NCBI GenBank assembly: GCA_016182655.1
Contig: JACPGB010000011.1
Span: forward strand, 1-32,562
Source: Deltaproteobacteria bacterium
GTDB taxonomy: Bacteria; Desulfobacterota; GWC2-55-46
DNA length: 32,562 nt
Direction: 5' to 3'
Part shown: positions 20,662 to 32,373 of the stretch, piece after piece
Position numbering within the stretch: the stretch's first letter is position 1
How the letters are laid out: the number at the start of each line of letters is the position of its first letter
Notes under the pieces: model-generated
What the model was told of the DNA's origin: nothing
The model's input: the letters and a program-made list of their open reading frames with translations, nothing else
Database searches by the model: none
Program-made: the position numbers and the translations under genes

Positions 20662-21037
20662 ATGAAAAAAAAAACGGATACTGATAGTCGAAGACGACAT
20701 AGACCTCGTCTCGCTCATCGACATAAACTTGACGAGGAAGGGGTTTCTGACCGAAGGCGCGCTCGACGGGATCGAGGGACTGAAAAAAGCGGCCTCTTTC
20801 TCACCGGACCTCGTCATACTCGACCTCATGCTCCCGGGGATGAACGGCTGGGACCTTTGCCGGGAGTTGAAGGCTATGGACAAAGGCCGCCCGGTACTCC
20901 TGTTCAGCGCCAAGTACGCTCCCGGCGACATAGATTCCGGGCTTGAGGCCGGGGCCGACGGCTATGTCTCGAAGCTCTCTCTTAACGAGCTCTTCCAGAA
21001 GGTCCATGGCCTGCTGGACGGCGCAGACGCCGCATAG
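20662..21037 (+). CDS. Lone receiver-domain protein, start separated from body by a frameshift at a run of ten A
   Basis: The body reads RILIVEDDIDLVSL, then DLVILDLMLPGMNGWDL (phospho-acceptor Asp), LLFSAK and DGYVSKLS before TAG at 21035-21037: one CheY-like receiver, about 124 aa, no output domain. The only good start, ATG at 20662 after GGGAGAG, is followed by ten A (20665-20674). Read literally it enters another frame; nine A would give MKKKRILIVEDD. Either RNA polymerase slippage on the A run restores the frame, the run varies between cells, or one A is a sequence error. It has its own PhoB box and is followed at 22 bp by a membrane mini-protein gene. Confidence 0.8.
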
Positions 21038-21309: not shown

Positions 21310-21675
21310 ATGGACGAAACGCTCCTCATAACCAAGGCCCTCTCCGACAGGACGAGGCTCCGGATAATAGCGGCGCTCTCGGGGGGCGAGCTCTGCGTAT
21401 GCCAGGTCGTGGAGCTCCTGAAGCTCGCGCCTTCCACGGTATCGAAGCATCTCCATATCCTGAGCGGGTCCGGCCTTATCCGTTCCCGGAAAGACACCCG
21501 CTGGGTCTACTACAGGCTCTCCGGCAAGGGCTCTTCGAAAAAGGCGCAAGACGCGCTTAAGTGGGCGCGGGCGGCGCTATCAGGCGATAAATCCATCATC
21601 GAGGACTCGAAGGCCCTTAAAAAGATCACCCGCGTATCAAAGGAGGCCCTTTGCAGGGCTCAGATAAAAAGATAA
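21310..21675 (+). CDS. arsR: ArsR/SmtB-family arsenic-responsive repressor
   Basis: 121-aa winged-helix repressor. MDETLLITKALSDRTRLRII is the family N-terminus; the recognition helix is in APSTVSKHLHILSGSGLI. The ELCVCQV segment carries the CxC arsenite-binding pair of classical ArsR, in helix 3. The C-terminal third is longer than minimal ArsR proteins. It is the first gene of arsR-arsC-acr3; arsC starts inside its last codons (25-bp overlap), so the genes are co-translated. Arsenite binding should release it from its own promoter. Confidence 0.95.
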   Translation: MDETLLITKALSDRTRLRIIAALSGGELCVCQVVELLKLAPSTVSKHLHILSGSGLIRSRKDTRWVYYRLSGKGSSKKAQDALKWARAALSGDKSIIEDSKALKKITRVSKEALCRAQIKR

Positions 21676-22247
21676 GGGCGCTATTCCTTTGCACCGGCAA
21701 CTCCTGCAGGAGCCAGATGGCTGAAGCATGGGCGCAAAGGCTTCTTTCAGAGGCCGTCCTGCCGTATTCAGCGGGAACAGCCCCCAAGGGGCTCGACCCG
21801 CTGGCGATCGTTGCTATGGCAGAGGCGGGGGTCGACATCTCCGGCTATCGCTCAAAGTCCGTGGACGAGTTAAGCGCGGTCTCTTTCGACCTCGTCATCA
21901 CGGTCTGTTCGGCGGCGGACGAGAACTGCCCGGTCTTCCCTGGCGCGAAAAGAAAGATCCACGCCCCGTTCGACGACCCCCCGCGCCTTGCAGAGGGCGC
22001 AAAGACGCGCGAGGAGGCGCTTGCGCACTACAGGAGGGTCCGGGACGAGATAAGGGAGTTCGTCTTTCCTCGACAGGTTCCTGACCCTCTGGATAGTGCT
22101 TGCGATGTTCGCGGGTGTCCTCATCGGCTGGGGTGCGCCGGGTGTGGCTACAGGCATAAACTCCCTGAGCGCCGGGACCACGAACATACCGATAGCCGTC
22201 GGGCTCATACTCATGATGTACCCGCCGCTCGCTCGCGTGCGATATGA
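21651..22247 (+). CDS. arsC: ArsC, thioredoxin-type arsenate reductase (C-terminus runs out of frame into acr3)
   Basis: Low-molecular-weight phosphatase-fold arsenate reductase; it turns arsenate into arsenite for export. The P-loop [14 protein letters not shown] (catalytic Cys) is followed by [15 protein letters not shown] with the two redox Cys and by FDDPPRL with the general acid Asp. Start: TTG at 21651 directly after AAAGGAGG. The conserved protein ends near REFVF (22068). Past this point the frame continues to TAG (22245-22247) as unrelated residues because it overlaps the acr3 coding frame. So the last ~60 residues are either non-native or skipped by a frameshift into acr3. Confidence 0.9.
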
Positions 22248-23088
22248 GGAGCTCGGCAGGGTATTCAGGGATTCAAGGATCCTCGCCGTCTCCCTCGTCC
22301 AGAACTGGGCCATAGGGCCCATTCTCATGTTCCTTCTCGCCATTGTGTTCCTGAAAGGCTACCCCGGCTACATGACGGGCCTCATACTCGTCGGTATCGC
22401 GCGTTGTATCGCCATGGTCATCGTCTGGAACGGGCTCGCTTGCGGGGACGCCGAGTACGCCGCCGGGCTCGTCGCCTTCAACAGCGTCTTCCAGGTCCTC
22501 TTCTACAGCCTCTATGCGTGGTTCTTCGTGACGATACTGCCGCCGGTATTCGGGGCCGAGTCCGCGGCCGTGAGCGTCACCGTCATCGATATAGCCGAAA
22601 GCGTCCTCGTCTATTTGGGAATACCGTTCTTCGGCGGGATGCTCACGAGATTCTTACTCATCAGGGCGCGCGGGGCAGAATGGTATGAAAAGAGGTTCGT
22701 GCCGTCGATCTCACCAATCACCCTCGCCTCGCTCCTCTTTACAATCGCCGTCATGTTCAGCCTGAAGGGCGGGCAGATATTGATGCTACCCCTTGACGTC
22801 GCGCGCGTAGCGGCCCCGCTCCTTATCTATTTCATCGTCATGTTCTTCGTAAGCTTCTGGATGGCGAAAAGGGCCGGAGCGGACTATGAAAAGACGGCGT
22901 CAGTCGCCTTTACCGCGGCCTCAAACAACTTCGAGCTCGCCATAGCCGTGGCCATCGCCACATTCGGCATAGGCTCTGCCGAGGCCTTCGCGGCCGTCAT
23001 CGGCCCGCTCGTTGAGGTCCCGGTCCTCATGGCGCTTGTAAACGCCGCGCTCCGTCTGCGCAGGTCTTTCAGTCCTGCCGCTTACTGA
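22096..23088 (+). CDS. acr3: ACR3-family arsenite efflux permease, N-terminus continuous with arsC
   Basis: Arsenite/proton antiporter with ten helices. [23 protein letters not shown] (the conserved Cys of ACR3) and [18 protein letters not shown] are diagnostic. Only a weak internal GTG (22096) is available as a start. The normal family N-terminus ([15 protein letters not shown]) is encoded just upstream in the same frame (open from 22054 after a TAA), with no ATG, GTG or TTG before it. It overlaps the end of arsC in the neighbouring frame: a +1 shift after the TTT codon at 22064-22066 would join VF of ArsC to LDRFLTLW of ACR3. See findings. Confidence 0.92.
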
Positions 23089-23105
23089 GCCCGATTATCC
23101 GCAAT

Positions 23106-23148
23106 ATAACACTCCCGTAACCTGTGATTGACATGCGTCGGGTAGAAT
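23106..23148 (+). promoter_or_regulatory. Predicted PhoB box and promoter of a Cys-rich mini-protein gene
   Basis: ATAACA (23106), GTAACC (23117) and TTGACA (23128), 11-bp period, then 9 bp and TAGAAT (23143-23148). The TTGACA alone could mislead as a -35; its distance to the -10 is too short for sigma-70 but identical to the other three Pho boxes here. Confidence 0.7.
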
Positions 23149-23180: not shown

Positions 23181-23452
23181 ATGCTCGGACTGGAAAACGC
23201 ATGCCCTTACCTTCAGGGCACGACGGAAGGCGCCCGTTGCAGGATAGAGGACCGCTGGGCGCGGGGCCAAAGTCAAATCGGGTCGCTTAAGGCAACCAGA
23301 GGCACACCCGCCCGAGACGAATTTGCCCGTCTGGCCAGGACGCCTTCATCAGGGAGTCCGCAGGGGCCGACATACACATATGCTTGAGCGAAGAGTTCGA
23401 AAGGTGCACGGTGCTCAGGTGTTACAATTACGGCGAAGAGGCGGTAATATAG
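23181..23452 (+). pseudogene. Cys-rich mini-protein gene with a frameshift
   Basis: GGAGGAG (23171-23177) precedes ATG 23181. The first frame gives MLGLENACPYLQGTTEGARC, then drifts into low-complexity residues and stops after YTYA. The -1 frame, open from 23291 to TAG 23450-23452, gives PSGQDAFIRESAG, HICLSEEFERCTVLRCY and NYGEEAVI. CPYL near the start and C-x-(S/T)-E-E-x-x-x-C near the end match the intact mini-protein at 26829-27005. So one gene is split by an indel between 23291 and 23385, or by a base-call error. It has its own PhoB box. Confidence 0.65.
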
Positions 23453-23466
23453 GGGGGGCCGCGAGC

Positions 23467-24156
23467 CTACTGGGCTTCTTCGGTCTCCCTGAACCTGTAG
23501 CCGTATCCTCTGATAGTCTCGATAAGGCCTTCGTGCGGGCCGAGCTTCTCCCTTATCCTCCTTACATGGGTGTCTATGGTCCTCGCCCCGGACGCCCCTT
23601 CCTCGGAGCCTATCCTCAAGAGGAGCGTCTCCCTGCCGAGAGGCCTGCCCTTTGACCGGACAAGCGCAAGGAGTATCCTGAACTCCGCGGCCGTCAGCTC
23701 CGCCTCTTTCCCGTCCACAAATACCTGAAACCGCTCCGTGTCGATCGAGACCGGCCCTGCCTTAATGACCTTCGAGTCCTCGGCAGGCACGCCTTTCCTG
23801 AGGACCGCCTTTATCCGGAGGACAAGCTCTCTCGGGCTGAAGGGCTTCACGATGTAGTCGTCGGCTCCGAGCTCGAGCCCTATGACCCTGTCTATCTCCT
23901 CGCCTTTGGCGGTAAGCATGATGACCGGTATGCGGCGCGTATCCGGGTCGGCCTTGAGCCTCCTCAGCACTTCGTTGCCTTCCATGTTCGGGAGCATGAG
24001 GTCGAGGAGTATGAGGTCAGGCAGGGTCTTGGCGAGCTCGAGCGCCTCGGGCCCGTCCTCGGCCGGGATGAACGCAAACCCGGCGTTCACGAGGTTGTAC
24101 CTGAGGAGGTTAAGGATGTCTATTTCGTCGTCTACCGCGAGTATCTTCTGCTTCAT
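23467..24156 (-). CDS. phoB: PhoB-like response regulator (OmpR/PhoB family)
   Basis: 229 aa. The receiver (1-120) has VDDE, D52 in LLDLMLPNMEG, MLTAKG and KPFSPRE. The winged-helix DNA-binding domain (about 130-225) has ELTAAEFRILLALV, RTIDTHVRRIREKLG and IRGYGYRF. Placement beside pstS and a phosphate porin, and a three-repeat Pho box in front of it, support PhoB over other OmpR members. No PhoR kinase or PhoU is in the window. Start ATG at 24154-24156 lacks a Shine-Dalgarno and lies about 8 nt after the expected transcription start. Confidence 0.88.
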   Translation of the reverse strand: MKQKILAVDDEIDILNLLRYNLVNAGFAFIPAEDGPEALELAKTLPDLILLDLMLPNMEGNEVLRRLKADPDTRRIPVIMLTAKGEEIDRVIGLELGADDYIVKPFSPRELVLRIKAVLRKGVPAEDSKVIKAGPVSIDTERFQVFVDGKEAELTAAEFRILLALVRSKGRPLGRETLLLRIGSEEGASGARTIDTHVRRIREKLGPHEGLIETIRGYGYRFRETEEAQ

Positions 24157-24170
24157 ATGTCTATGACGGG

Positions 24171-24213
24171 ATTCTAAAGCAGTACTGTTAAGGGAGTGTT
24201 ACGGGCGTGTTAA
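24171..24213 (-). promoter_or_regulatory. Predicted PhoB box and promoter of phoB
   Basis: Read on minus: TTAACA (24208-24213), GTAACA (24197-24202), TTAACA (24186-24191), each 11 bp apart, then 9 bp and TAGAAT (24171-24176). This is the clearest of the four boxes and implies that phoB activates itself. Confidence 0.78.
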
Positions 24214-24234
24214 GTCTGGGGGTCGTTTTGAATT

Positions 24235-24267
24235 GAAAAAAAGGCCGCCCCGTGGAACGGGGCGGCC
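24235..24267 (-). terminator. Rho-independent terminator of pstS
   Basis: GGCCGCCCCGT (24243-24253), 3-nt loop, ACGGGGCGGCC (24257-24267). On the minus strand it is followed by seven T. It isolates pstS from phoB. Confidence 0.92.
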
Positions 24268-24295
24268 CGGATGAAGATCTTATGCGTCTAACCTG

Positions 24296-25336
24296 CTATT
24301 TTTTCCAAAGGGGGGCGCCGTTGCAGTTTATGTTCGTTGCCCAGCTATCTTCCATCACCTGATAAACGGATTTGGGGATGGGCACATAGTCGAGGGCCTT
24401 CGCCATCTCTGAGCCGTTCTCGTACGCCCAGTCGAAGAACTCGAGCACGGCCATGGTGTTCTCGCACTTCGTTGCATTCTTGTGAACGAGTATGAAGGTC
24501 GCGCCTGCTATGGGCCAGGAGTTCTTTCCGGGCTGGTCGGTAAGGACCACCGCGTATCCCGGAGTGTTCTTCCAGTCCGCGCCCGAGGCCGCGGACATGA
24601 AGGACTCTATCGACGGCTCGACAAAGGCCTTTTCCTTGTTCTGCATCCTCGCGTGCGTGAGCTTGTTCTGGAGCGCGTAGGCGTACTCGACATAGCCTAT
24701 GGTGTTCTTTATCCTCTTCACATAAGTGGCCACACCCTCGTTGCCCTTGCCGCCGACACCGGCGGGCCAGTTGACTGCGGTGCCGAACCCGGCCTTGTCA
24801 TGCCACTCCCTGCTTACCTTGTCGAGGTAGTTGGTGAATATCCATGTCGTGCCGCTGCCGTCGGAGCGGTGGACGACGGTGATGGAGTCGTCGGGGAACT
24901 CGACGCCGGGGTTGATCTCAACAAGCTTTTTATCGTTCCACTTCGTGATCTTGCCGAGGTATATATCCGCAAGCACCTCGGGCGTAAGCTTTATCTGCCC
25001 GGGCTTTACGCCCTTGAGGTTGACGACAGGCACGACACCGCCTATCGCCGCCGGGAACTGCGAAAGGCCTGCCTCGTCCAGGTCCTTGGTAAAGAGAGGC
25101 GCGTCAGAGGCCCCGAAGTCGACGGTCTTGGCCTTTATCTGCTTTATGCCGCCTCCGCTCCCGATAGACTGGTAGTTCATGTTCATACCCGTTTTTTTGG
25201 CGTACTCGTAGGCCCACTTCGAATAGAGCGGGTACGGGAATGTCGCGCCCGCGCCGTTAATGAGCGTCCCGGCAGAGGCGGAACCCGCCGAGAGCGCAAG
25301 TGTAGCGATAGAAAGAGCAAGCAATATCTTTCTCAT
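24296..25336 (-). CDS. pstS: PstS, periplasmic phosphate-binding protein
   Basis: 346 aa with signal peptide MRKILLALSIATLALSAGSASA. The phosphate-site loops are present: GAGATFPYPLYSKW, SIGSGGGIKQI, FGASDAPL and HRSDGSGTTWIF. It delivers phosphate to the PstCAB importer, none of which is in the window. Start ATG 25334-25336 with AAAGGAG 6 nt upstream. A terminator follows it, so it is transcribed without pstCAB. Upstream lies the porin gene on the same strand, separated by 270 bp of hairpins and a palindromic element; no Pho box of its own is seen. Confidence 0.96.
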   Translation of the reverse strand: MRKILLALSIATLALSAGSASAGTLINGAGATFPYPLYSKWAYEYAKKTGMNMNYQSIGSGGGIKQIKAKTVDFGASDAPLFTKDLDEAGLSQFPAAIGGVVPVVNLKGVKPGQIKLTPEVLADIYLGKITKWNDKKLVEINPGVEFPDDSITVVHRSDGSGTTWIFTNYLDKVSREWHDKAGFGTAVNWPAGVGGKGNEGVATYVKRIKNTIGYVEYAYALQNKLTHARMQNKEKAFVEPSIESFMSAASGADWKNTPGYAVVLTDQPGKNSWPIAGATFILVHKNATKCENTMAVLEFFDWAYENGSEMAKALDYVPIPKSVYQVMEDSWATNINCNGAPLWKK

Positions 25337-25382
25337 TTCATCTCCTTTGTTTTGTGAATCGTTTCGGAATTAAGTAAAGGTG

Positions 25383-25470
25383 GGGCGGGTTTTACCCCGC
25401 CCCGGCAGGATGAAGAACCCCGATTTTTGTTTCGGGGTATTTACGGGGAGGTCAGCGGCTCCCCGTAAAT
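25383..25470. repeat. Three hairpins between the porin gene and pstS
   Basis: GGGGCGGG with its complement (25383-25404), CCCCGA/TCGGGG (about 25418-25437), and a perfect 12-bp stem ATTTACGGGGAG / CTCCCCGTAAAT with an 8-nt loop (25439-25470). None has a long T tract on the minus strand. They may act as weak terminators or RNA stabilisers between porin and pstS. Confidence 0.65.
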
Positions 25471-25489
25471 CCGTGGACATTTCGGTTAT

Positions 25490-25606
25490 CAGGCTGCTCA
25501 AAAAGCTCCAGCTGCGAGGCGTCGAGGAGCGAGGCGTACTTTAGTATGTACGTCGCAACGACGAGCGACGCGGACAACAAAGCAGATGGACTTTTTGAGC
25601 AGCCTG
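25490..25606. mobile_element. 117-bp palindromic MITE-like element
   Basis: Perfect 16-bp terminal inverted repeats: CAGGCTGCTCAAAAAG (25490-25505) and its reverse complement (25591-25606). A weaker inner pairing continues the stem (CTCCAGCTGC with GCAGATGGA). No gene inside. The right end touches the stop codon of the porin gene (25607-25609), so the mRNA folds immediately after translation ends. I recall similar elements as frequent intergenic repeats in deltaproteobacteria. Confidence 0.8.
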
Positions 25607-26779
25607 CTAGAAGTACATCTGGGCCTGGACCTGATAGACGTCCTTTGAGTCCGCGTCCGCGAGCGCGCCCTTTGCCGCGGAGTCATAGTCGGTGTGGACC
25701 CAGTTGGCCCCGACCTTGAGGCTGTGCCCCTTGCCGTACCAGTTGACGCCGAAGGTGGTGTTCCGCTCTTCCTTGTTATCGGCCTCGGAGTTTTGATCGT
25801 AGACCTCGTATCTCGCCACAGGCTCTATGTTGAGGCCATCGACCAGGTAACCCGCCTGCGCATACCAGCCCCTCGGCTTTGATGTACCGATGGAAGGGTC
25901 CGTCGAATCTACCTCCCAAGCGTTGTACTCGGCCTGCGCGGTGATGTTGTTATAGTGTCCCGAGACATCGAAGCCCCAGAGGGATCTATCTTCCTCGTAC
26001 CCGTTCTCAGCGTATTCGATCGAGGACTGGTTGGCGAGGTTCAGCCCGACGGTCAGGTGCTGGCCCTTGCCGAGGTGCGCGTCGCTCTTGGATTTTTCGA
26101 CCCAGCCCGGCGGGGAGAGCTCGACCCTCGCAACATAGAGGGGGGAAGAGGTAAAGACCGTCCTGTCTGTGTGTATATCCTCGCCGTTCTGCCAGCCGTC
26201 GGCTACGGCGACTTCATACGCGACTACCCCTTCGAGCGCCTTTCCGAAGACCGCCGCTTTCGGCTGGTAATATGCGTCTGTCTCGCCGAAGACCTTCTTC
26301 GCCGCCTCGGTAGAGGCGGGCCTGTCTATAAGGAGCTGTTTGGAGGACGAGGTGAGAGAGACCCTCGAGTACGGGAGCTTGTATTTGCCGACCAGGAAAG
26401 AGTACGCCTCGTCGGCGTCCCACTCGACATACCCGTAGAGGAGGGAGACCTCGTCAGTATGTCCGGTCTGTTCCCACTTGTCGGCAGAGAGCGTCAGGTT
26501 GTACTTTATCGTCTTCGTAAGGAGGTGCCCGCCCATCTCGAGTCGGACCCTTCTCAAGTAAAGGTCGGACTCGCTCTCGTAGGACCTTCCGTCCTCTGAT
26601 TTTACGAGGTCGCCGAAGTCGAACCTCGGCTGGAGCCTTACCCTGATGTTCAGGTCCGATTCGTTGCTCGTAAGCGTTATTCCCTTTGTCTCGTCGCCGA
26701 ACATGAACCCTTCGGCAAAAGCAGGTCCGCTCAGCACTACTCCCGACAACAACACCGCCGCAAAGATCTTTCTCTTCAT
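25607..26779 (-). CDS. OprP/OprO-like phosphate-selective porin
   Basis: 390-aa outer-membrane beta-barrel. Signal peptide MKRKIFAAVLLSGVVLSGPAFA. The N-terminal barrel region (RVRLQPRFDFGD, YLRRVRLEMGGHL) and alternating beta strands up to a final VQAQMYF with the terminal Phe recognised by the BAM machinery are typical. Pfam's porin O/P family is the best match by eye. Start ATG 26777-26779 behind AGGAGAAGG. It sits between pstS and a Pho-boxed mini-protein gene, which supports phosphate uptake under starvation. Confidence 0.9.
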   Translation of the reverse strand: MKRKIFAAVLLSGVVLSGPAFAEGFMFGDETKGITLTSNESDLNIRVRLQPRFDFGDLVKSEDGRSYESESDLYLRRVRLEMGGHLLTKTIKYNLTLSADKWEQTGHTDEVSLLYGYVEWDADEAYSFLVGKYKLPYSRVSLTSSSKQLLIDRPASTEAAKKVFGETDAYYQPKAAVFGKALEGVVAYEVAVADGWQNGEDIHTDRTVFTSSPLYVARVELSPPGWVEKSKSDAHLGKGQHLTVGLNLANQSSIEYAENGYEEDRSLWGFDVSGHYNNITAQAEYNAWEVDSTDPSIGTSKPRGWYAQAGYLVDGLNIEPVARYEVYDQNSEADNKEERNTTFGVNWYGKGHSLKVGANWVHTDYDSAAKGALADADSKDVYQVQAQMYF

Positions 26780-26828
26780 CCTTTTCCTTCTCCTTCTTAT
26801 TTGTTTGAATATCTATTTTGAAAACTTG

Positions 26829-27005
26829 TCAGTTGCGGTATTCGCTCGCTGTTCCTGACCGGAGGACATGGCTCAAGAGCATCGGGCACCTGTAGTGCTC
26901 CTCGGTTGAGCAGTATTCCTCGGTCTCCTCGACGGACGGCGCAAGCAGCGTGATCGAGGCGGCGCACATCTCGACCTTTCCCTTTTCAAGATACGGACAG
27001 TTCAT
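26829..27005 (-). CDS. 58-aa Cys-rich mini-protein, intact
   Basis: ATG at 27003-27005 with GAGGAG 8 nt upstream; stop TGA 26829-26831. The protein has four Cys: MNCPYLEKGKVEMCAAS, then YCSTEEHYRCPML. No signal peptide or membrane helix, so it is cytoplasmic. The spacing C-x10-C ... C-x7-C could bind zinc, iron-sulfur or a soft metal; function unknown. It is the first gene after a Pho box and lies 49 bp before the porin gene, so the two are probably one transcript. A broken relative stands at 23181-23452. Confidence 0.8.
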   Translation of the reverse strand: MNCPYLEKGKVEMCAASITLLAPSVEETEEYCSTEEHYRCPMLLSHVLRSGTASEYRN

Positions 27006-27034: not shown

Positions 27035-27077
27035 ATTCTAAACAAGGATTGTTAAGGTAATGTGACAGGGAAGTTAT
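27035..27077 (-). promoter_or_regulatory. Predicted PhoB box and promoter of the mini-protein/porin transcript
   Basis: On minus: ATAACT (27072-27077), GTCACA (27061-27066), TTAACA (27050-27055), 11-bp period, then 9 bp and TAGAAT (27035-27040), 30 bp before the ATG. On the plus strand a TATAAT (27075-27080) lies at the outer edge, so some divergent activity toward nirS is possible. Confidence 0.75.
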
Positions 27078-27155
27078 AATCGCATTACTCCCGGCTTTTT
27101 TGCAAGCGCGGGCCTTTTTCGGGCGATTTCAAGGGATTCAGAGGGGGAACGATGC

Positions 27156-27183
27156 TTGACAGGTGCGAATTCCGGTTTAGAGT
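27156..27183 (+). promoter_or_regulatory. Weak candidate promoter of nirS
   Basis: TTGACA (27156-27161), 16-bp spacer, TAGAGT (27178-27183), about 120 bp before the TTG start. The rest of 27081-27301 shows no gene. No FNR-type TTGAT-N4-ATCAA site was found by eye. Confidence 0.3.
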
Positions 27184-27301
27184 TATCCTTAAAGGTGCGA
27201 GATCAAAGGCGTCTTTGACTCCTGAAAGCCAGCCCTTTGGCCCTTTTTCGGATAAACCGCTGACTGCCGCATACCCCGTATTCGCATGCCAAGGAGGCCC
27301 C

Positions 27302-28962
<1,661 letters not shown>

Positions 28963-29062: not shown

Positions 29063-29899
29063 ATGCCACACGCCATCTGGAAAGGCTCTATAAGCTTCGG
29101 ACTCGTCAACATCCCGGTCGGCCTATATACCGCCGAGAACAGGGAGGAGAAGATCTCCTTCAACCTGCTCGACAGGCGCGACCTCTCGCCGATCGGGAAC
29201 AAGAGGTTCAACAAGACGACCGGCGAGGAAGTGGCCTCCACAGACCTCGTAAAGGGCTACGAGTACGAGGAGGGGCGCTATGTCGTATTAAGCGACGAGG
29301 ACTTCAAGAACGCCAACCCAGAGGCGACCCAGACCGTCGAGATAATCGACTTCGTAGACTCAAAGCGCATACACCCGGTCTATTTCGAGAAGCCCTATTA
29401 CCTTGCGCCGACGAAAAAGGCGGTCAAAGGCTATGCGCTCCTTCTCGAGACATTAAAGAGGACCGGAAAGGCCGGGGTCGCGCGCGTCGTAATACACACG
29501 AAGGAATACATAGGCGTAGTCATGCCCTTTGGCAAGGTCCTGGTGCTCGACCTTCTCCGGTATGCCGAAGAGATCAGGGGAGCCGAAGACCTGAACCTCC
29601 CCTCCGAGGGCCTTGAGGCCGCCGGAGTCACCGAAAAAGAGCTCGACATGGCCGAAAAGCTCGTCGCAGGCATGGCCTCTGACTGGGACCCGTCGAAGTA
29701 CCGCGACACATACAGGGAAGAGCTCGAAGGCTACATAAAAAGGAAGATAGCGGCCGGAGAGACCGAGGCCGCAAAGGCCGCGCCACCGGCGCTCCCGGCG
29801 CGAGGCGAGGTAATAGACCTCATGGCTCTTTTGAAGAAGAGCGTCGAGGAGGCCCACTCCGCGCGTGAGCCTGCCCGGAAGAAAGCGGCAAAGGGCTGA
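29063..29899 (+). CDS. ku: Ku, NHEJ DNA end-binding protein
   Basis: 278-aa homodimeric ring that threads broken DNA ends and recruits LigD. It starts MPHAIWKGSISFGLVNIPVGLY, the family hallmark. The core contains FNLLDRRDLSPIGNKR, GYEYEEGRYVVLSDEDF and KPYYLAPTKKAVKGYALL. The lysine-rich end (EPARKKAAKG) is the usual short C-terminal tail. Start ATG 29063 with AAGG nearby. Its TGA overlaps the ligD ATG, so the two are co-translated. Confidence 0.96.
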   Translation: MPHAIWKGSISFGLVNIPVGLYTAENREEKISFNLLDRRDLSPIGNKRFNKTTGEEVASTDLVKGYEYEEGRYVVLSDEDFKNANPEATQTVEIIDFVDSKRIHPVYFEKPYYLAPTKKAVKGYALLLETLKRTGKAGVARVVIHTKEYIGVVMPFGKVLVLDLLRYAEEIRGAEDLNLPSEGLEAAGVTEKELDMAEKLVAGMASDWDPSKYRDTYREELEGYIKRKIAAGETEAAKAAPPALPARGEVIDLMALLKKSVEEAHSAREPARKKAAKG

Positions 29900-32373
29900 T
29901 GAATGAAGGCGGCGACATCGGAGGCTACCGCAAAAGACGCGACTTCACAAAAACGCCCGAGCCAAAGGGCGGCGAAGGGAAAACGGCAGGCGGTATCTTC
30001 GTCGTCCAGAAGCACTCTGCAAGGGCCCTCCACTACGATCTGCGCCTCGAGCTCGACGGCGCGCTCAAAAGCTGGGCTATCCCAAAGGGCCCGTCGCTCG
30101 ACCCTGCGGACAAACGCCTCTCTATCCATGTAGAAGACCACCCTATCGAATACGCCGTCTTCGAAGGCGTGATCCCGAAAGGCGAATACGGCGCGGGAAA
30201 GGTCATCCTATGGGACAGGGGGTTCTGGATACCTTTCAACGACCCGCATGAGGGATACCGCAAAGGGGAGCTCAAGTTCATCCTCGCGGGCAGGAAACTC
30301 AAGGGCGCGTGGGCGCTCGTCCGCCTTAAAAAACAGGAGGACGAAAAAGACGAATGGATGCTCATCAAGGAGACGGACGAGGAGGCGCGAAGAGACTTTG
30401 ATGTAACGGCAGACCTTCCGTTGAGCGTCTTAAGCGGACTCCCAATCGATGAAATCGCAGAGGGCCGGGGAGTCTGGGCCTCTGAAGAGACCCTGCCAGT
30501 CGTCTCCGAAGCGATGGACGAGATAAAAGCCGTAAAAGCGGAAATGCCTGCAAGGCTCTTTCCGGAGCTCGCGTATCTTGCGGACTCGCCTCCTTCGAAA
30601 GACGGCTGGCTCTTCGAGATAAAGTACGACGGCTACAGGTTGCTTTCCCGCATAACTGACGGGGAGGTCCGGCTCTTCACGCGGAACGGCAACGACTGGA
30701 CCGGGAAGTTCCCCTCTATCGTCCGGTCCCTCTCAAGGCTCAGAGTCAAATCCGCGTGGCTCGACGGCGAGGCGGTCTATCTAAAACCCGACGGCACGAC
30801 CGGTTTCAGCGAACTGCAGAACTCCTTGAGCCTCTCTCATGACGAAGACCTCTCTTACATCATCTTCGATATAGCCTACTACAACGGGTACGACCTTAAG
30901 GGCGCGCCGCTTTCTGAGCGCAAATCGCTCCTTAAGGCCCTCCTGCGCGCGCACGCGAAGGACCTTTTGAATGTACGGTTCGGCGACCACTTCGAGGGTG
31001 ACGGGCTTGCCTTTTTCGAGCGCGCCTGCGCGAGCTCGCTCGAGGGGGTCGTCGCAAAGGAGCGCTCTTCTCCATACAGGCAGGGCAGGAGTCGTGAGTG
31101 GCTTAAGGTAAAGTGCAGACTGAGACAGGAGTTCGTCATCGGCGGCTATACGCTCTCCGGTGGCAAAAGGTCTTTCGGCGCGCTCCTCGTCGGCGCGCAC
31201 GATGATGAAGGCGCCTTCACATACTGCGGCCGCGTAGGCACGGGGTTTGACGAGGCGACTCTTAAGTCCCTGTTCGAAGGGATACAAGGGCTCGGTGCCG
31301 TTGCGCCGCCCTTCGCAAACCCTCCGGCAGGCATTGAGGCTCGCGATGTGATCTGGGTGACGCCTGAGCTCGTCGTCGAGGTCGAGTTCAGCGAATGGAC
31401 GCGCGACAGGATACTCCGGCAGGCCTCGTTCCGGGGGCTCCGTCCCGACAAGGACTGGAAGGAGGTGACGATAGAGCTGGCTGAAAAGACTGAGCCCCCG
31501 CGGATACGCCTTACGAACCCGGAGAAAATTTTCTACCCCGAGGACGGCATTACCAAAAAACGGCTCGTCGAATATTACGAGCTCGCGGGGGAAAAAATGC
31601 TACGCCACATCGAAGGCCGCCCGCTTACGCTCGTGCGCTGTCCCGAGGGCTACGACAGGGAATGTTTTTTTCAGAAACATGCCGAGATGTCCATTCCGGC
31701 GGGCGTGGAGCGGGTCCCGATAATCGAAGACGGAGAGGCCAGGGATTACATGGCCGTGAGTTCTCTCGAAGGCCTCCTCTGGCTCGCGCAGATGGGCACG
31801 CTCGAGGTGCACGCATGGGGGTCGAGGACGCCAAAGGTCGAATTCCCTGACAGGATAACTCTCGACATGGACCCGGACGCATCCGTTCCCTGGGAGCGGC
31901 TCGTCGAGGCGGCATTTCTTCTGAGGGCGGTCCTCGAAGAGCTCGGGCTAAAGTCCTTTCCGAAGCTCACCGGAGGCAAGGGCGTCCATGTGGTCGTGCC
32001 GATAGAGCCCCTCATAGATTGGAATAAGGCGAAGGCGTTTGCGAAGGCGCTCGCGGAATTCGTCGCAATGGGTTTGCCGGAGAGGTTCACCTCAGTCATG
32101 ACAAGGGCGCGGAGGGTGGACAGGATCTACATCGATTACATGAGGAACCACCGTGGCTCAACGGCGATAGAGCCATATTCGACGAGGGCGAAGAAGGGCG
32201 CGCCCGTTGCCGCGCCGGTCTCATGGGCCGAGCTCGGGGACTTAAGGCCGGACTCGTTCACGGTATTGAACATGGCGGAACGGATAAAAGGGCTTAAGGA
32301 AGACCCGTGGGAAGGGTACTTCGAGATCAGGCAGACGATAACGGGGGAGATCAGGAAGAAGTTGGGAAAATGA
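29899..32373 (+). CDS. ligD: LigD, multifunctional NHEJ ligase/polymerase
   Basis: 824 aa, domain order PE-LIG-POL as in Pseudomonas LigD. The 3'-phosphoesterase part (about 10-165) has FVVQKHSARALHYDLRLEL (H45, D47, R49) and HVEDHP. The ATP-dependent ligase part (about 220-515) has EIKYDGYR with adenylated K242, LDGEAV, EGVVAK and WLKVK. The primase-like polymerase part (about 540-820) has LDMDPD metal-binding Asps and GGKGVHVVVP. All three active sites look intact. ATG at 29899 overlaps the Ku stop. The protein repairs double-strand breaks with Ku in the cytoplasm. Confidence 0.96.
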   Translation: MNEGGDIGGYRKRRDFTKTPEPKGGEGKTAGGIFVVQKHSARALHYDLRLELDGALKSWAIPKGPSLDPADKRLSIHVEDHPIEYAVFEGVIPKGEYGAGKVILWDRGFWIPFNDPHEGYRKGELKFILAGRKLKGAWALVRLKKQEDEKDEWMLIKETDEEARRDFDVTADLPLSVLSGLPIDEIAEGRGVWASEETLPVVSEAMDEIKAVKAEMPARLFPELAYLADSPPSKDGWLFEIKYDGYRLLSRITDGEVRLFTRNGNDWTGKFPSIVRSLSRLRVKSAWLDGEAVYLKPDGTTGFSELQNSLSLSHDEDLSYIIFDIAYYNGYDLKGAPLSERKSLLKALLRAHAKDLLNVRFGDHFEGDGLAFFERACASSLEGVVAKERSSPYRQGRSREWLKVKCRLRQEFVIGGYTLSGGKRSFGALLVGAHDDEGAFTYCGRVGTGFDEATLKSLFEGIQGLGAVAPPFANPPAGIEARDVIWVTPELVVEVEFSEWTRDRILRQASFRGLRPDKDWKEVTIELAEKTEPPRIRLTNPEKIFYPEDGITKKRLVEYYELAGEKMLRHIEGRPLTLVRCPEGYDRECFFQKHAEMSIPAGVERVPIIEDGEARDYMAVSSLEGLLWLAQMGTLEVHAWGSRTPKVEFPDRITLDMDPDASVPWERLVEAAFLLRAVLEELGLKSFPKLTGGKGVHVVVPIEPLIDWNKAKAFAKALAEFVAMGLPERFTSVMTRARRVDRIYIDYMRNHRGSTAIEPYSTRAKKGAPVAAPVSWAELGDLRPDSFTVLNMAERIKGLKEDPWEGYFEIRQTITGEIRKKLGK

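Follow-up and report, generated by a model that had tools for sequence, protein, structure and literature searches.

The stretch of DNA analysed here (the window, 32,562 nucleotides) carries a phosphate locus with a small gene on either side, termed A and B (Table 1). The host is one of a group of 'Deltaproteobacteria' known from metagenomes, with GWB2_55_19 and UBA5799 among its public near relatives. The product of gene A is MNCPYLEKGKVEMCAASITLLAPSVEETEEYCSTEEHYRCPMLLSHVLRSGTASEYRN, and its ribosome site is GAGGAG; the ribosome site of gene B is GGGAGGAG. A sequence-only reading of this DNA had credited both genes with strong ribosome sites and had placed them on either side of phoB-pstS-porin. 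Both sites were located, and all three genes lie between A and B.

Table 1. Genes, promoters and inserted element at the phosphate locus of the window.
Feature	Position	Strand	Remarks
Single-domain response-regulator receiver	20666..21037	+	relatives immediately precede A in 15 other copies
ArsC, low-molecular-weight phosphatase-type arsenate reductase	21651..22247	+	
ACR3-type arsenite exporter (SBF family)	22096..23088	+	about 90 bp upstream of gene B, same strand
Predicted Pho-type promoter of gene B	23104..23148	+	ATATAAC-4-CCGTAAC-4-GATTGAC, 10-bp spacer, TAGAAT; score 13.5, weaker
Gene B, remote paralogue of A	23181..23452	+	interrupted, pseudogene in the window genome; from comparison with intact orthologues
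REP-like repeat insertion within gene B, 89 bp	23253..23341	+	from a four-locus alignment and the repeat copies in the genome
phoB response regulator (Response_reg + Trans_reg_C)	23467..24156	-	
Predicted Pho promoter of phoB	24171..24215	-	ACTTAAC-4-CCGTAAC-4-CCTTAAC, 10-bp spacer, TAGAAT; score 23.1
pstS, phosphate-binding protein (PBP_like_2)	24296..25336	-	without own Pho box
Phosphate-selective porin O/P (Porin_O_P, PF07396)	25607..26779	-	second gene of the operon, without own Pho box
Gene A, 58-residue Cys4 mini-protein	26829..27005	-	heads the A-porin-pstS operon; from reading frame, homologues and selection
Predicted Pho promoter of gene A	27035..27079	-	TTATAAC-4-CTGTCAC-4-CCTTAAC (27051-27079), 10-bp spacer, -10 TAGAAT (27035-27040); score 23.9

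The 58-codon reading frame of gene A, proposed earlier from the window alone, was borne out by homologues in 32 of the 59 related genomes. C3, C14, C32 and C40 were invariant in alignments of 28-39 relatives, which share the consensus M-E-CPYLE...C-x-AS...P...YC-x-TEEHYRCP-x-LLA..LR. The sequence-only reading had named loss of the four cysteines in homologues as grounds for giving up its claim; they are kept. Pairwise dN/dS within the genus was ~0.06-0.21. This indicated that gene A is a genuine protein under purifying selection. One copy, in genome G028 (L055:1067-1251), is frameshifted. Searches of Pfam, NCBIfam and PDB sequences with gene A, its alignments and wider members gave nothing above noise, and 28 relatives compared with Pfam yielded scattered single chance matches only, DUF1127 not being among them. 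Gene A was not found by tblastn in a plasmid collection, matches outside the phylum amounted to a few named ones, and the literature searched contained no paper describing the family.

Gene B has CPYL near its start and C-L-S-E-E-F-E-R-C near its end. The motifs previously noted as common to the two genes, CPYL near the N-terminus and C-x-(S/T)-E-E-x-x-x-C near the C-terminus, were thus seen in both, and a profile-profile comparison (90.7%, i.e. ~91%, P ~1e-6) upheld their description as paralogues. Intact orthologues of gene B are present in three genomes of the same genus (L031:5887-6069(+), L033:12821-13000(-), L034:11847-12017(-)), always flanked by ACR3 and a convergent phoB; dN/dS was ~0.11-0.25. 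In the window genome the gene is interrupted directly 3' of GAGGAC by inserted bases which shift the frame, and the remainder aligns with the intact orthologues. Nearly all of the 89 inserted bp are a copy of a dispersed ~86-bp REP-like element, of which the genome has about 30 nearly full-length copies (including L204-L221). Its ends are CGCTCGGCGCGGGGCC and GTCCGGCGAGGAC, with an inverted repeat inside; it occurs singly or in some tandem arrays with a period of 89-90 bp, often after GGAC. Therefore, gene B became a pseudogene by insertion and not through a sequencing slip. The earlier view of B as a frameshifted relative of A was correct as to the relationship; the supposed simple frameshift is an 89-bp insertion instead. 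Accordingly, a functional A/B pair does not exist in the window genome.

Three Y1_Tnp genes (PF01797) in this genome could be mobilisers of the REP-like element. The phoU gene of the genome is also broken (G000:C58:4094-5067, L226): its 5' half is duplicated with a partial REP-like copy between. The second 5' copy lacks bases and is shifted in frame, possibly an assembly error. Loss of PhoU would be expected to derepress the Pho regulon.

Promoters were scored with two 7-mers at an 11-bp phase, using a hand-set matrix modelled on the Pho box of E. coli, together with a -10 hexamer at a distance of 9-11 bp downstream; upstream regions of 183 other genes served as background and reached a maximum of 16.8. 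The promoter of gene A scored above all 183 and is conserved in relatives. It has the architecture by which Pho regulon members are recognised, i.e. a direct-repeat box in 11-bp phase which replaces the -35 element and lies ~10 bp before the -10 hexamer. Promoters above 16.8 were found at 35 of 46 close family copies, and in each of them the spacer was exactly 10 bp. Four of the copies that carry the promoter have no phosphate gene within 6 kb (L051, L054, L164, L165), which argues that gene A is itself a member of the Pho regulon. In the window the scan detected no Pho box belonging to the porin or to pstS; thus gene A appears to lead a Pho-type A-porin-pstS operon. Predicted Pho control of gene A is well supported. 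A scan with the repeat pair alone undervalued gene B, and its score rose once the -10 spacing was added. It was equalled or exceeded by 2.7% of the background regions and by 0.4% of shuffles, and the geometry was identical in four of four same-genus orthologues. Pho control of gene B is therefore likely, not certain. The sequence-only reading had assigned a Pho box to each gene and had seen two promoters of one regulon serving two paralogues. Pho-type promoters of the same geometry are indeed present on both, very strong at A and weaker at B; a working pair is not, B being a pseudogene here. Taken with the alignments, it is well supported that A and B represent a new, so far unnamed family of Pho-regulon Cys4 mini-proteins.

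The genomic context was surveyed for 46 close copies of gene A in 34 genomes. At most 400 bp upstream of a porin, pstS or phoB gene and on the same strand were 29 copies, and 26 of the 34 genomes had at least one such directly adjacent copy. Within 6 kb of one of these phosphate genes were 35 of the 46. A missing link of homologues with phosphate genes had been the other outcome named beforehand as fatal to the idea; the census points the opposite way. In L032, L036, L041, L049 and L058 a full pstSCAB-phoU operon lies beside gene A, and ars genes are absent within 6 kb. Remote members recognised by profile only, with weak E-values (G030, G037, G039, G113), are also located in pst loci, and their position is an independent check, at the level of gene order, on the phosphate link.

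Three relatives (G007, G011, G022) possess porin-pstSCAB-phoU operons without gene A, and in two of them a Pho promoter stands directly before the porin. The idea that the porin operon requires gene A was therefore rejected. Gene A is to be regarded as an optional accompaniment to the transporter and not as one of its components; judged by these gene contents it is not essential to the Pho uptake system. A role as a replacement of PhoU was likewise ruled out: PhoU is present in 55 of the 59 relatives. PhoU resides in the same operons and may be an analogue of A, as a modulator in the cytoplasm, yet the two share no detectable similarity. Compared with Pho operons that begin with pstS or a phosphate porin, the window operon has the same type of PhoB-box promoter and the same porin, pstS and phoB; it differs by the additional four-Cys gene between promoter and porin.

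The cysteines of gene A are spaced C-x10-C-x17-C-x7-C. CxxC pairs of a classic zinc ribbon or zinc finger are not conserved in the family, and a ferredoxin-type CxxCxxC motif is absent from the conserved columns. A first AlphaFold run with 29 alignment rows gave a pLDDT of 67 and no structural match. In a second run with 39 rows one model attained a pLDDT of 81.5, the other four ~55. The best model has a short beta-hairpin and helices at 25-32 and 41-56, with the cysteines predicted around the hairpin, where helix 1 ends and where helix 2 begins. Against the PDB it gave only weak similarities with Z <3; the top one (Z 2.8) was to a piece of the human U2 snRNP complex. This moderate-confidence model is compatible with a metal site and does not show one.

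With a profile of diverse members the Cys4 module was found in two further settings: as a tandem pair preceding GcvH-like domains (L199-L202), and following a domain of ~150 residues (L190, L195-L198, L203). A profile built without these fusion proteins matched the GcvH-type module (E 2.5e-6) with the four cysteines in register, and profile-profile comparison by hhalign of the gene A family with the fused modules gave 95-96%. These proteins, from the same phylum, share with A the Cys spacing, the pattern CP-F/Y-L...C...C...CP and the profile match; unlike A they are multi-domain and have no known tie to phosphate. The fusion to GcvH-like proteins indicates that the module as such is not phosphate-specific. 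The ~150-residue domain has no Pfam match; it may be a degenerate receiver, the hhalign similarity to receivers being weak (17.5%).

What could such a protein do? Our leading, still tentative proposal, held at somewhat less than an even chance, is that A and B are Pho-induced, metal-holding adaptors of Pho signalling or uptake. What the sequences show is the family with its four invariant cysteines, purifying selection, the Pho promoter, the operon position and the adjacency to receivers; actual induction, metal, fold, partner and direction of the effect are inferred. When phosphate is scarce, PhoB~P would bind the phased repeats before gene A, and A-porin-pstS would be transcribed; in other genomes it would drive A-porin-pstSCAB-phoU. 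The weaker promoter of like build would drive gene B. The four invariant cysteines would hold one metal, Zn2+ as first choice and an Fe-S cluster as second, and the bound metal would fold the beta-hairpin/two-helix module. Inspection by eye revealed no evident N-terminal signal sequence in the product of gene A, and a cytoplasmic location is therefore expected. There A might bind a Pho component, possibly PhoR, PhoB, PhoU or the neighbouring single-domain receiver, and tune the response. In 15 copies A is immediately preceded by a true receiver gene with a conserved phospho-acceptor region, and this arrangement is the chief indication that A may act in two-component signalling. A precedent are the tiny DUF1127 proteins (Agrobacterium SDPs, E. 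coli YjiS), which bind PhoR (PMC12501420). Like A they are tiny and connected with phosphate control, and they act by contact with PhoR (PMC12501420). A differs by the lack of a match to the DUF1127 profile in Pfam, by the Cys4 module, by its own Pho promoter and by its place inside the pst/porin operon.

The invariant cysteines also fit other functions. Phosphate starvation would lower polyphosphate and phosphate ligands, free Zn or Fe would rise, and a Cys4 protein could sequester it while Pho signalling is untouched. Four invariant cysteines in 58 residues under Pho control are what such a buffer calls for; it needs no protein partner, and in several genomes the gene stands alone. Nevertheless, we consider metal buffering unlikely: one metal per 58 residues makes a poor buffer, the non-Cys core (CPYL, AS, TEEHYRCP, LLA..LR) is far richer than metallothionein-type buffers need, and the module occurs in fusions with other domains.

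From the Cys pattern and the nearby arsenic genes the sequence-only reading had suggested metal or arsenite binding. In an arsenic scheme, arsenate would enter via Pst under phosphate starvation and be reduced, and A/B would bind As(III) and pass it on either to ACR3 or to a channel of the AqpS type. Indeed, ACR3, ArsC or a MIP channel was encoded within 6 kb of 18 of the 46 copies, two copies were near ars genes without phosphate genes, and in every copy seen in the genus gene B follows ACR3 at a distance of ~90-118 bp. Against this, 19 copies sit in phosphate loci where no ars gene occurs within 6 kb. Nineteen phosphate-only against two ars-only copies mean that arsenic is not a defining feature. 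Moreover, the cysteines are widely spaced along the sequence; the close-set thiols (CxC, vicinal Cys) of ArsR- and ArsD-type sites are absent from the conserved columns of gene A. Arsenic protection as the primary function is thus distinctly unlikely. A secondary side role, dispensable for the phosphate link, is possible judging from the gene neighbourhoods. In L060 and L061 a MIP-type channel and ArsC are encoded within the pst operon, in the pstS/pstC interval.

Alternatively, the four cysteines might pair as disulfides and signal oxidation to the Pho system with no metal involved. Invariant cysteines in a small protein beside signalling genes would suit this, though nothing specifically favours it, and the joint retention of all four through large divergence and in fusions is what a single metal site predicts; we regard the redox switch as very doubtful. 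That A merely couples or attenuates porin translation from its position just ahead of the porin is hardly credible, given selection at the amino-acid level, copies before pstS, before phoB or alone, and the occurrence of the module in fusion proteins.

The proposal of a Pho adaptor can be extended. The Cys4 module may constitute a new metal- or redox-responsive signalling domain; the Pho-induced stand-alone form would feed back on the Pho two-component system, possibly via the adjacent receiver, and a like job would be done in the receiver- and GcvH-like fusions. This is a speculation which we rate as improbable as it stands; if true, it would couple phosphate availability to metal or redox state. 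Within well-studied regulons, no part is less annotated than the small proteins. The gene A family has a very clean regulon signature: its cysteines are invariant, its Pho promoters nearly identical, and it regularly occupies the first position of a phosphate-uptake operon. It provides a testable candidate for the tuning of phosphate signalling beyond the E. coli model, and the module defined by it is also present in other proteins without an assigned role.

Additional features of the window were recorded. The gap between porin and pstS contains an inverted repeat whose 19-bp arms are 85 bp apart (25487-25609), which resembles a small inserted element. Cytochrome c and cytochrome d1 domains are encoded in two overlapping frames at 27152-28962, as if in a frameshifted nirS/nirN-like gene. 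At 29063-32373 Ku adjoins a LigD-type ligase-polymerase, a bacterial end-joining pair.
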